Shown: positions 19,087-38,500 of the stretch, one piece after another
How the letters are laid out: each line of letters starts with the position of its first letter
Position numbering within the stretch: the first letter of the stretch is position 1
DNA from: Nannochloropsis oceanica
Lineage: Eukaryota > Sar > Eustigmatophyceae > Eustigmatales > Monodopsidaceae
Direction: 5' to 3'
Assembly (NCBI GenBank): GCA_004519485.1
Contig: CP038119.1
Span: forward strand, 62,001-126,000
DNA: 64,000 nucleotides
The notes under the pieces: model-generated
The model's input: only the letters and a program-made list of their open reading frames with translations
Database searches by the model: none
What the model was told of the DNA's origin: nothing
Program-made: the position numbers and the translations under genes

Positions 19087-21093
19087 ATGTTGAAGAGTTC
19101 ATTGCCTGATGACTGGGTACACCTCCCCTTTGATACATCAGCCCTCGGCGTGCGCACAGCTCTTTTGAAGAGTACAATTGAATTCTCACAGCTGCGCAAA
19201 GTCATCAACACTTGTGCAAAGCAAGGCCTGGAATTGCTGTACTGGACTCCTGATTCAGATGTTGGGACTGTAATTCATAACCAAGAATGGTTCACAGGCT
19301 ATGGCGTGGCCAAGGGAGTCGAGTTCAAGCTGCCGCTGGCAAACCGTCACAGCGGCTCCACTTCACAGATCCCTTTAGAAATGAGTCCTGATTTCTTCGT
19401 AGAGCCACTAGCTTCCATTGAGGAGGAAGATTTCTACGATCTCGTGGATTTGGCCCTCATCGCTGGGCATCATTCTCGGTTTCGCCTGGACCCAGCACTG
19501 ACTCACGCCCAATTTAAGAGCCTATACAAGGCATGGTTGCAAAATTCCGTGACTAGGCAGGTAGCTGACCAGATTTTTGTGGCCCGTCGCAAGGAAGATG
19601 GCAAGGCTACGGGATTCATCACCGTCAAGCTTGCTGTCGACAGAAATAGCGCTTCCATAGGCCTTTTGGGTGTCTCACCCTCATGCCAGCGTCAAGGATT
19701 AGGGGCAGCCTTGATTTCCGCGGCTTGCGAATTTACCCAGAGCGCAGACATCCCGCAAATCACTGTCCGGACGCAGGAAGATAATCATATGGCCATAAAC
19801 TTCTACGGTGCTCAAGGCTTTATGCCCCATGATAACGGCCCGAAAACCACTTATCACATCTGGCTCACGCACCGCGTTATAGACCGAGTACAATATAATG
19901 TCCCGTACCTCACTGGCGATGAAGGAAAGGAAGTGTCGCGCCTCATCAATTCTCAAAGACTGGACAGTTTGGGTAGATATACTGTCGCGTGCGAACACTG
20001 GCTGGAGACGAATCTAGGATGCTCAAAGGCATTGCTAACCTTGTCTGCCACCGCTGCCCTGGAGCAAGCAATATTGCTTTGTAAAATTGGCCCTGGCGAT
20101 GAGGTCATCATGCCATCCTTCACCTTTGTGTCCACAGCCAATGCTGTGGCCTTACGCATGGCCACGCCGGTTTTCATAGACGTTGGGGATGACTTGAACA
20201 TGGACATCGCTGCAGTATCAGAGGCTGTGACTTCCAAGACGAAAGCAATTATGGTGGTTCACTACGGGGGAAACGCTTGCGATATGGACAACATCATGCA
20301 CTTGGCAAAGGAAAAGGAATTATATGTCATTGAAGATGCTGCGCAAGCATTCCTCAGCAAGTACAAGGGCCGTTGCCTTGGTACAATTGGTCACTTGGGA
20401 TGTTTGTCATTCCATTACACAAAAAATACGGTGTGCGGAGAAGGTGGGGCTCTACTCGTGAATGACCCTCGTTTCCATTCCCCAGCAGCAATAATCCGAG
20501 AAAAAGGCACTAATCGTGCAGACTTCATGCTCGGCAGCGTGAGCAAGTACGAATGGATGTCCTTGGGTTCTTCTTACGTACCGTCGGAATTATGCTCCGC
20601 GTTTCTTCTACCACAGCTCTTGGATGCAAACGAATCCGCTTATCGACGGAAGAGAGTCTGCGATGCCTACAGGGTATTATTGGCACCCTTGGCCGCGCGC
20701 GGCTGTTTTCGATTTCTAAAGGTCCTGAGCGACCGGAATGGGGCTGCTATGCTGGCCGATACATGTGGAAATGGGCACTTGTTTCCCATTATTTTCCCCT
20801 CGACGGACAGTAGGAAGATGGCCCAGACGGCCATGACCACCAAAAATGTACAATGCCTGACGCATTTTGTTCCCTTGCACCTTTCCCAAGGTGGCATGAA
20901 ATATGGAAAAGTGTGGCCGCATGCCTCTCTTGAAAGTACGATAACTGCATCGGCTTGTCTATTACGCCTTCCGGTATGGCCTGGAATGCGATTTGGACAT
21001 ATCCAGTACGTCGTCCAGGTTCTGTACGAACACTTTGGCGAAGATTGTCCTTCCGTGACCACCGCTATGCATCTCTTCATGCCCACTACCTAG
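19087..21093 (+). CDS. RffC-RffA (WecD-WecE) fusion: dTDP-Fuc4N N-acetyltransferase + transaminase
   Basis: A single intronless frame of 668 residues. Residues 1-85 match the N-terminal domain of bacterial RffC. Residues about 95-265 are a GNAT acetyltransferase with HSRFRLDP, IGLLGVSPSCQRQGLG (acetyl-CoA loop Q-x-x-G-x-G) and VRTQEDNHMAINFY. Residues about 270-655 are a DegT/DnrJ/EryC1 aminotransferase with GDEVIMPSFTFVSTANA, VIEDAAQAF and SFHYTKN, where Lys446 is the expected PLP Schiff-base lysine. REKGTNRADF and GSSYVPSEL also match WecE. In enterobacteria these are separate adjacent genes of the enterobacterial common antigen cluster: the transaminase makes dTDP-4-amino-4,6-dideoxygalactose and the acetyltransferase makes dTDP-Fuc4NAc. 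One polypeptide would do both steps. No targeting peptide is seen. An in-frame stop at 19069 limits the 5' end. Confidence 0.95.
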   Translation: MLKSSLPDDWVHLPFDTSALGVRTALLKSTIEFSQLRKVINTCAKQGLELLYWTPDSDVGTVIHNQEWFTGYGVAKGVEFKLPLANRHSGSTSQIPLEMSPDFFVEPLASIEEEDFYDLVDLALIAGHHSRFRLDPALTHAQFKSLYKAWLQNSVTRQVADQIFVARRKEDGKATGFITVKLAVDRNSASIGLLGVSPSCQRQGLGAALISAACEFTQSADIPQITVRTQEDNHMAINFYGAQGFMPHDNGPKTTYHIWLTHRVIDRVQYNVPYLTGDEGKEVSRLINSQRLDSLGRYTVACEHWLETNLGCSKALLTLSATAALEQAILLCKIGPGDEVIMPSFTFVSTANAVALRMATPVFIDVGDDLNMDIAAVSEAVTSKTKAIMVVHYGGNACDMDNIMHLAKEKELYVIEDAAQAFLSKYKGRCLGTIGHLGCLSFHYTKNTVCGEGGALLVNDPRFHSPAAIIREKGTNRADFMLGSVSKYEWMSLGSSYVPSELCSAFLLPQLLDANESAYRRKRVCDAYRVLLAPLAARGCFRFLKVLSDRNGAAMLADTCGNGHLFPIIFPSTDSRKMAQTAMTTKNVQCLTHFVPLHLSQGGMKYGKVWPHASLESTITASACLLRLPVWPGMRFGHIQYVVQVLYEHFGEDCPSVTTAMHLFMPTT

Positions 21094-35580: not shown

Positions 35581-38500
35581 TTAGACATACATGGAAGGCC
35601 CGTACAGCTTACGTCGACGCGCCCCCTTCTCCACGGTAAAGACGGGCGAGAAGTTGTAAATGCCCGAAGCGACCTCCGTAGCCTTGATATAGTAGTCTCC
35701 CTCCCGATGGATCAAGGGCTGAAAGGTGACTGCGGTTTCCCCCGCCCCATTCTCGTCTACGCTCACCGTGGCCAAGGGCCAAGAGGCCTCTTGCCCCACA
35801 ACACCACCCCCGACACGGACCAGGCGCAAGCTCACCGATGCCGACGGCGGGAAATGTGCGAGGATCAAACGGTACTTGTTGTCGGAGCCGTAGTGCGCAT
35901 GATTTACGGGCACAGCGGGCTGCGCAGGGTCCTGCAGCGCAACAGAAAAGGCACCCATGGCGCTGGTCTGCCCCCCGGGAAAGTTCTGGTCGTTGTCGAG
36001 GAGCCCATTGGTGTTGTAGGCCGGAATGTAAAGCATGCGGTCGTATAGGAGTTGAAGGGTCCCCACGTCCACGCCTTCATCATCATTCAGGTACGTCTTG
36101 AGGTCGTCTTGCAGAGGGGAGGCAACCGACGCAGATGACGGCTTAAGCATATTCAAAACCGAGTTAGATCGTTCCCTGCTGGTCGCCACCACCATGATCT
36201 TGAAGCGCTGCGTCAAGTCGTGCGTCTCGGTGGCCATGGCCCTGTGAAAGGCCAGCCGGCGCTTTTCGTGCTCGGCAGGGAGGCCATCGGCGAAGGTAGC
36301 CTTCAACAGTGAGTCGGGCGTCGTGTCAGACACCGTCACATGCAAGGTCTCCAGCGCATCCCCGTTTTCGGCCAGCAAGGTAGCCATCGCTTCCTTCACT
36401 GTGGTTTCACTAAGACCCCCCGATACTCCCGGCATGGTCACGTCCAAGTCCGCCAAAATCACGTAGTGCTCCTTGTAGTCCTCAAAAACTTCCGTGTCCT
36501 GGACCACCAGCCCTCCGGGACTTGACAGCCGTGTTTGGATCTCTCCACACGCCTTTGTCTGATCGCAAGACGACAGGCCCGGCCCGCTCACACTATCCAC
36601 GTTGCACAAACCACAGTATCCTTCCCGGGCGCCATTAATGTACATCATAGTCTTGTTCGAGGGAGAAGAGTCAGAGGAGAGCTTCAGGAAAGCCTGCGCA
36701 GCGTCTGCCACACCTTGCGGGAATGTATCAGCCAGGGACTGTAATTGCGCCGAGTCGGCGACGTTGACTCTCTTCTTGGTCATATTGAACGCCAGCAGAC
36801 TGATGTCGCCCGAGGCAAAGCTTTGGAGGAGTCCCCGCACGGCTGCTGGGTCTGAACCAAGCGTCGACGACACCACGGCCTGCTGTCTCCGCCGTGTTCT
36901 AGAGCGAGTTTCATTATGATGGTCATGATCATCATGATGATCATCTTCATCACCATGTTCGTGATCTTCGCAGCCCATCCCCGGTGGAACGAAGAAAGGT
37001 GAACCCGGCGCCCATGCAGCGTGTTCAGGCTCGCACGATCCTGCGATCCAAAAATCAAAATGCTCGTTCACCAGTGCAATTATTTCAGTGTGGGAAGAAT
37101 ACCCTAAGACAGCCCCCCCTATGCCCACATACAATGTTCCACCCAGCCCTTTAAAGTACTCAATGGCCGAAATCTCCACAAAAGGACACCCGATCATGAC
37201 TAGGAGGCCCGACGACACCCCAATGTACTCTCCAATCGCGAATGTTGTCCAAATCCCTGACACGTCTACAATTGGTGCACCGATCATCACAGCAATCCCC
37301 GTGGCCACGTACCCCAAGCACCCACTCCCAGTTACCCCTCCGATAGATGAGTAGTCGGCAATGGGCGCGCCGTGAGCGGAAAAGGAGCCCGCACCGACGA
37401 AGAAATAGTCGCCCGCCACGCTGCCCCAAATCGGCCCACTCCACGCATTCAAAGTCGCACCAGTCAGCACCAGCACACCGGCACCCACGCAATAGTCGAG
37501 CCCAGCGCCAAAGTAAGCAAACACGCCATACCATTCCTGCCACGCCACGCCCGTTACAATCTGCACGCCGGCCAATACGGTCATTTCTCCCGTCCCAGCA
37601 AAGAATTGGGTCGCGGAGAAGTACGAGAACGAGCAGCCCGTAATGATCTGCACACCACCTACTACAAGGAAGGCCTGCCCAGCGCCATTGAAGGCGGCGG
37701 CCGCATTAAACTCCTGGAAAGCACACATGGTAAAGACCGCCACCCCCCCAAATACAACGGTGTTGAAGCCCATCCCATTCTCTGCGCCGAGGAGGGTAAT
37801 ATAAAACCAGGAGCACCCCGTGAAACGGACCATCCCTGCAAGCACACACACGTCGCCCCCAAAATAGATGCGATCACTGAAAGGCGTCAGCAATTCTAAA
37901 TCGTAGAAAATGCAGCCATTGAACGACACGTCTCCACCGGCCACCAACACGTGCCCACCCCAGATACGGAGGCCGATAAGGTTCACGGTAAGCCTAATCG
38001 CCGCTTGAATGTCGTCCCAGCTGGTCTGGTCCGAGGTGAAGTATACGCCTGTGTAAGGGAGGAAGATAAGGAGGGAGAGGTTAAAGGAGGAACGGAAGAG
38101 AAATAGCCGACATAATTGCGCAACATGCTCAAGCTTGATTATCTCACAGCCTGCCCGCGGCGTCGTATTCGATGTCAAACCCGAAGAATTGAACCCTCGA
38201 ATCAGATATTAGCCCGCAGGGGCGTATGTACCTATACAGCCCCCTCCCCTTTTTCATTCCCTTGCGTACCATTAAATGTCCCACCCACTGCGCCCGGCTC
38301 AAAGTAGACTGAACCGCCTCGGATATCAATTACTTCACCAGGATTGGCTTCGGCATCTTGCCCGCCTAACTGGAGTGTGCGGAGAGTCCGGTGCTCATCC
38401 TCTGTCTCCGGCTCACGCCAGTCATCCTCCTATTTGTGAAAGTGAAAGAAGATTTTTTTTTTGAAAGCAATAGAGATTGAGGCTTCATGCGGGTCGAGGA

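Follow-up and report, generated by a model that had tools for sequence, protein, structure and literature searches.

Fuc4NAc counts as a sugar of bacteria. Does the single gene that unites two bacterial-type enzymes for it, in a 64,000-nucleotide stretch of Nannochloropsis oceanica DNA (hereafter the window; contig CP038119.1, positions 62,001 to 126,000), encode a genuine two-step enzyme of this alga, and where did it come from? The gene is a real, conserved fusion of two bacterial-type enzymes. We consider it likely that it is a nuclear gene derived from one old fusion of adjacent bacterial genes, and that its product is a bifunctional, probably cytosolic, sugar-nucleotide enzyme making NDP-Fuc4NAc. 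If true, it would offer a clear example of two bacterial genes becoming a single eukaryotic protein, and the glycans of algae may contain an amino sugar to which analyses of neutral sugars are blind; a published analysis of N. oceanica CCMP1779, perhaps a relative, covered seven neutral sugars, determined as alditol acetates (PMC3499364). No report of a eukaryotic WecD-WecE fusion or of algal Fuc4NAc was found among the titles and abstract openings listed for open-licence papers.

A fused gene in a eukaryotic genome

The gene and its parts are as follows (window coordinates).

19087..21093, + strand: fused gene, 668 amino acids; single intronless open reading frame, full-length in P0002 and P0003
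19087..19881, + strand: WecD/RffC-like N-acetyltransferase half, residues 1-265
19804..19806, + strand: codon of Tyr240, the counterpart of E. coli WecD Tyr208 (alignment)
19888..21036, + strand: WecE/RffA-type PLP aminotransferase half, residues 268-650 (NF008687, PDB match, trees)
20416..20418, + strand: codon of Tyr444 (FHYTKN), mark common to the fused group (residue count)
20422..20424, + strand: codon of Lys446, PLP Schiff-base lysine, K181 in E. coli WecE (alignment)

The frame runs from its ATG with zero internal stops, and five codons separate that ATG from the stop before it. Pfam places a GNAT domain at residues 153-245 (E 4e-14) and a DegT/DnrJ/EryC1 domain at residues 277-646 (E 6e-76), in agreement with the preliminary description, which had proposed an RffC-type GNAT domain joined to a WecE-type aminotransferase in exactly this frame. 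The motifs it had called intact are all present, namely the PLP lysine (K446), the acetyl-CoA loop (QRQGLGAA) and the ED-AAQ motif (IEDAAQ, residues 415-420). P0002 and P0003 share 75% and 72% identity with the protein over 99% of its length; since both keep the frame unbroken, selection appears to maintain it as a single protein.

The gene is located on the 723-kb contig C21 in a genome of 29.26 Mb and 32 contigs (G000), and is the only long DegT match genome-wide; the four others span 57-130 residues, with E values of 6e-6 or weaker. Its codons had been described as poor in G/C at the third position and its surroundings as a tract-free island. The GC3 value, 0.543, lies towards the bottom of the range but not outside it: nine of ten other hand-picked open stretches of the genome are higher (0.548-0.766) and one is lower (0.533). 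The island is real, as the 2-kb bins starting at 18 and 20 kb contain 17 and 0 tract bases; those at 32, 36 and 58 kb, however, are equally clean (19, 0 and 0). The low-end GC3 fits a foreign past of the gene and does not in itself show a recent transfer, which is disfavoured because the trees argue against it. Neighbouring open frames resemble lipase class 3 (13.2-14.8 kb) and an ABC transporter (24.0-25.4 kb), both barely above the cut-offs, and tRNA and Rfam searches of the window gave zero matches. An 875-residue open frame with glycine/valine-rich stretches (35581-38208, - strand) had zero Pfam matches at E 0.01.

The aminotransferase half is of the WecE type

Against the NCBIfam WecE equivalog NF008687, the aminotransferase half scores 422.7 bits and passes the cut-off of 375. 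It misses the stricter subfamily TIGR02379 (ECA_wecE), with 385.6 bits against 434.85, so we file it under NF008687 and not under the ECA subfamily. Its best PDB matches are 4piw/4zah, with an E of 1.4e-85, in addition to 6blg, all of which are dTDP-4-amino-4,6-dideoxygalactose transaminases. K446 and the PLP-ring aspartate D417 align with K181 and D152 of E. coli WecE, and K446 is invariant in an alignment of 18 proteins. The position two residues before the PLP lysine is Tyr in all 37 fused-set proteins that reach the motif (38 examined, including the window's own and the fragment P0021; P0121 is truncated), compared to none of 155 stand-alone WecE proteins (154 Glu, one Val) and one of 81 ORFs from bacterial and viral loci (76 Glu). 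Because TIGR02379 is missed and Tyr stands in for Glu near the lysine, the stereochemistry of the product could differ. Altogether, the sequence strongly suggests that this half converts a 4-keto-6-deoxyglucose nucleotide to the 4-amino sugar.

The acetyltransferase half is WecD-like

The N-terminal half alone scores 77.1 and 50.7 bits against the WecD equivalogs NF008212 and TIGR02382, below the respective cut-offs of 219 and 195.1 bits, and we therefore name it WecD-like rather than a WecD equivalog. The bacterial L074 protein, which adjoins a wecE, likewise stays below the WecD cut-off with 76.4 bits, and the stand-alone P0124 and P0125 also fail. Tyr240 aligns with Tyr208 of E. coli WecD, which we take to be catalytic; the Tyr is conserved in at least 90% of alignment A3, and L074 has Phe at this place. 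The WecD model is matched at E 1e-5 by 33 of the 40 members of alignment A4, which includes 31 fused and two acetyltransferase proteins. In the predicted structure, WecD is the best solved relative of this half by fold, and the model follows the WecD fold over both WecD domains. The half is less conserved than its partner, with 64-65% identity to P0002 and P0003 compared to 78-82% for the aminotransferase half. The similarity to WecD suggests that it would acetylate the product of the aminotransferase half.

Distribution of the fused proteins

Both domains are found together in 36 proteins, the window's own among them, and with the partial P0121 in 37; with 36 further proteins carrying the two domains in full or in part, a chance fusion is excluded. 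They include Tetradesmus obliquus hypothetical protein OEZ85_003258 (P0019), encoded on a 6.7-Mb contig, and the EukProt entries P0032 and P0126. P0021, from Nannochloropsis oceanica, is a fragment that begins 37 residues before the end of the acetyltransferase half and covers most of the aminotransferase, with 67% identity to the window's protein over the aligned aminotransferase part; at this distance the two would be different species, or one label is wrong. Many of the remaining two-domain proteins come from metagenome-type sources, and a bacterial host may be among them. With a profile of the fused proteins, 35 two-domain proteins outrank every stand-alone one among the 120 matches listed (P0036 is not among these), and a search of genome contigs with the single protein gave zero relatives. 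P0122 and P0123 carry the acetyltransferase only; as their alignments end inside the domain, at residues 233 and 219, they look like fragments. From this distribution, the fusion looks like an old eukaryotic enzyme that had gone unnoticed, older and more widespread than the preliminary description had supposed.

Bacterial and viral relatives

None of the 81 aminotransferase ORFs from bacterial and viral loci is fused; they come from the 80 top-ranked loci out of at least 586 in GTDB plus one viral contig, and a few loci, L041 for example, are truncated upstream. On this sample a fused bacterial ancestor was rejected, though a rare bacterial fusion may exist. The pair itself is familiar from bacteria. 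In E. coli, the acetyltransferase gene rffC precedes wecE as a separate gene 4 bases away; in L074, separate acetyltransferase and aminotransferase genes stand side by side in the order of the fused protein; and in a 38-kb IMG/VR contig (L104:3779-5553), a weakly WecD-like acetyltransferase gene overlaps the WecE gene by 4 bases. The results bear out the earlier view of the protein as bacterial-type RffC and RffA halves, in bacterial gene order, joined in one chain in a eukaryotic genome. In such neighbouring pairs, fusion would need only the loss of a stop or a short frame change. A viral origin was also considered and rejected: in two scans of viral contigs the one relative was L104, whose two genes overlap but are separate. 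Phage records gave 27 matches to the aminotransferase half alone (8 among the matches listed), all below 60% identity, and so speak neither for nor against fusion.

The sole locus ORF with the Tyr motif (FHYTKN) belongs to a Planctomycetales MAG (L099) and passes both WecE cut-offs. It lies in a row (L099:187-4961) of an rmlB-like frame recognized by eye, an rmlA passing its cut-off, the WecE-type gene, a family-2 glycosyltransferase and a formyltransferase, which is possibly a 4-formamido sugar pathway. WecE-type genes in L024-L103 span many phyla, including Bacillota, Chloroflexota, Planctomycetes, Desulfobacteria and others (among the matches listed). This spread is hard to square with a survey that covered 12,939 genomes of archaea and bacteria and assigns Fuc4NAc to Gammaproteobacteria only (PMC7725333).

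Phylogeny points to one old fusion

In all four trees of the aminotransferase half, the fused rows form one side of a branch: 32 of 89 rows (SH-aLRT 99), 26 of 72 (support 100/99), 31 of 188 (support 92) and 23 of 64 (support 100/96). Fragments or short proteins (P0010, P0021, P0028 and P0036) were excluded beforehand, and P0121 and P0126 were not entered. The 89-row tree holds every second locus plus ten named loci, as well as alternate members of a set of 24 stand-alone proteins; 18 further rows, including L104, were dropped for the 72-row tree; the 188-row tree uses every locus but L104 whose alignment exceeds 330 residues, together with even-numbered stand-alone proteins; and 26 rows were dropped for the 64-row tree. 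The fused clade of the 72-row tree lies inside bacterial WecE and apart from ArnB, with a soft root due to the very long ArnB outgroup branch. L099 joins the fused clade with a support of 97 in the 188-row tree and 99/94 in the 64-row tree, and is possibly, among bacterial proteins, the one closest to the fused aminotransferase.

The acetyltransferase half gives a similar but weaker picture. Here 32 fused proteins together with P0122 and P0123 form one side (34 of 57 rows, support 78/86); once long-branch rows are left out, 29 fused proteins with the same two do so (31 of 45 rows), and the support falls to 73/75. The nearest neighbors of the fused halves are P0124, P0125 and L074. These trees lend modest weight to a single origin of the acetyltransferase halves, and taken alone would allow two. 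The simplest reading of both halves is one old fusion of neighboring bacterial genes. The preliminary description had the alga gain the pair by transfer and fuse it as its own event. Its bacterial origin stands, at least ultimately, given that rooted trees place the aminotransferase half within bacterial WecE; the event private to this alga does not, as a green alga and EukProt also supply two-domain proteins and a single old fusion fits the data. A fusion unique to this alga was accordingly rejected.

Proposed pathway and the sugar nucleotide

We propose that the C-terminal PLP aminotransferase half would aminate NDP-4-keto-6-deoxy-glucose at C4, probably with glutamate as amino donor, to yield NDP-4-amino-4,6-dideoxy-galactose, and that the N-terminal GNAT half would then combine this amine with acetyl-CoA to yield NDP-Fuc4NAc. 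We infer both activities, their order and the galacto configuration from homology, which strongly suggests this function for the fused enzyme. A cytosolic location is probable, judging by eye from the lack of an obvious targeting extension before the conserved start.

A search of the genome for dTDP-glucose synthase and 4,6-dehydratase, suggested earlier as a check, bore out the second in part. RmlB/UGD-like matches occur in exon-like pieces at C1:489.7-490.9 kb and C5:1003.9-1005.2 kb, and all RmlB-type dehydratase matches in the genome are below the TIGR01181 cut-off. The best PDB match of the C5 exon is 6vlo, which we take to be mimivirus R141, with 101 bits compared to 78 for the next; these RmlB/UGD-like proteins would presumably be UDP-specific. 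Two equal-scoring RmlB-type matches lie 5.2 kb apart at C16:593637-594044 and C16:598886-599293, which suggests a recent tandem duplication; a comparable pair came up in a second search. The genome also contains two strong UDPGP-family genes (UDPGP matched in none of 14 prokaryote controls) and an RmlD/Epimerase-family frame at C4:280.7 kb, presumably NRS/ER-like. NRS/ER is reported from 42 of 47 stramenopile strains in the accessible part of one survey (PMC6556577). As for the synthase, searches of the genome for RmlA (TIGR01207, TIGR01208, PF00483 and two RmlA proteins) gave zero matches except for a sole weak one (E 0.03-0.06) that looks like an eIF2B-type exon; RmlC and a WecF-type transferase (PF07429) also gave zero matches. 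PF00483 nucleotidyltransferases had zero matches at E 0.001, and eukaryotes are expected to carry GDP-mannose pyrophosphorylase and eIF2B subunits; introns probably hide these genes from the search. The RmlA and RmlC negatives are weak for split genes, as a yeast GDP-mannose pyrophosphorylase control, expected to match, also found nothing.

Because UDPGP, RmlB/UGD-like and NRS/ER-like genes are found and RmlA and RmlC are not, the latter a weak negative, UDP, drawn from the UDP-rhamnose route, is the preferred, putative nucleotide in this alga over dTDP, with the mimivirus synthesis of UDP-Vio4NAc as a precedent (PMC10117803); dTDP is favoured for the ancestor, as L099 adjoins rmlA and an rmlB-like gene. 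A broader proposal, that eukaryotes including eustigmatophyte and green algae share an old bifunctional enzyme making UDP-Fuc4NAc from the UDP-rhamnose intermediate after a once-only wecD-wecE fusion, is speculative and on balance unlikely.

Alternative explanations

That the enzyme uses dTDP-sugars exactly as in enterobacteria, with dTDP-Fuc4NAc as product, is possible though somewhat doubtful. It would accord with the pass against a WecE equivalog named for dTDP, with the place of the bacterial relative L099 in a run with an rmlA that passes its cut-off, and with the statement, in the accessible text of PMC8987622, that NDP-rhamnose starts from dTDP-Glc in bacteria and some microalgae; the zero matches to RmlA and RmlC beside RmlB/UGD-like and NRS/ER-like genes speak against it, not firmly given that the yeast GDP-mannose pyrophosphorylase control also found nothing. 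The Tyr in place of Glu near the PLP lysine also raises the C4 epimer NDP-4-acetamido-4,6-dideoxyglucose (Qui4NAc/Vio4NAc) as product, as in mimivirus, a virus of eukaryotes in which UDP-Vio4NAc is experimentally validated according to the accessible text (PMC10117803). Yet by sequence the aminotransferase half resembles WecE (E 1.4e-85) far more than mimivirus L136 (E 2.7e-10), and we regard this product as improbable.

It is more improbable still that one half alone is active, the other having turned into a scaffold or taken up an unrelated amine as substrate. The faster change of the acetyltransferase half, its weak WecD family score and the grouping of the acetyltransferase-only, though fragment-like, P0122 and P0123 with the fused proteins would be in line with this, whereas the conservation of the Tyr across alignment A3 and the WecD matches across alignment A4 argue for a working enzyme. 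Bacterial contamination of the assembly, which an intronless bacterial-type gene with low-end GC3 might bring to mind, was rejected as extremely unlikely: the contig is 723 kb of a 29-Mb genome in which matches to other genes are broken up as if by introns, the closest named relative is from Nannochloropsis oceanica, a fused relative sits on the large Tetradesmus contig, and none of the 81 bacterial or viral ORFs is fused. We therefore retain the bifunctional NDP-Fuc4NAc enzyme as the preferred reading.

Comparison with known systems

The fused protein has the same domain types and gene order as E. coli WecD (RffC) and WecE (RffA) of enterobacterial common antigen synthesis, with the PLP lysine and the WecD tyrosine aligned. 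By contrast, the E. coli enzymes are encoded separately and the window's protein is one chain, with 43% identity to WecE in the aminotransferase half and the Tyr-for-Glu exchange two residues before the lysine. The Tetradesmus obliquus protein shares the fused architecture end to end, with 47% identity over 98%, although it is named only as hypothetical or N-acetyltransferase domain-containing and its EDAAQ motif reads EDNAH. In mimivirus, R141, L136 and L142 make UDP-Vio4NAc along a route in which UDP-4-keto-6-deoxyglucose, also a precursor of UDP-rhamnose, is aminated and acetylated (PMC10117803). There, however, the aminotransferase L136 is separate and only distantly related, and the acetyltransferase L142 is instead fused to a glycosyltransferase domain. 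The RmlC/RmlD fusion of Prymnesium parvum, as given in the available part of PMC6556577, likewise joins successive bacterial sugar-nucleotide enzymes in an alga, but the enzymes are different and the sugar is rhamnose.
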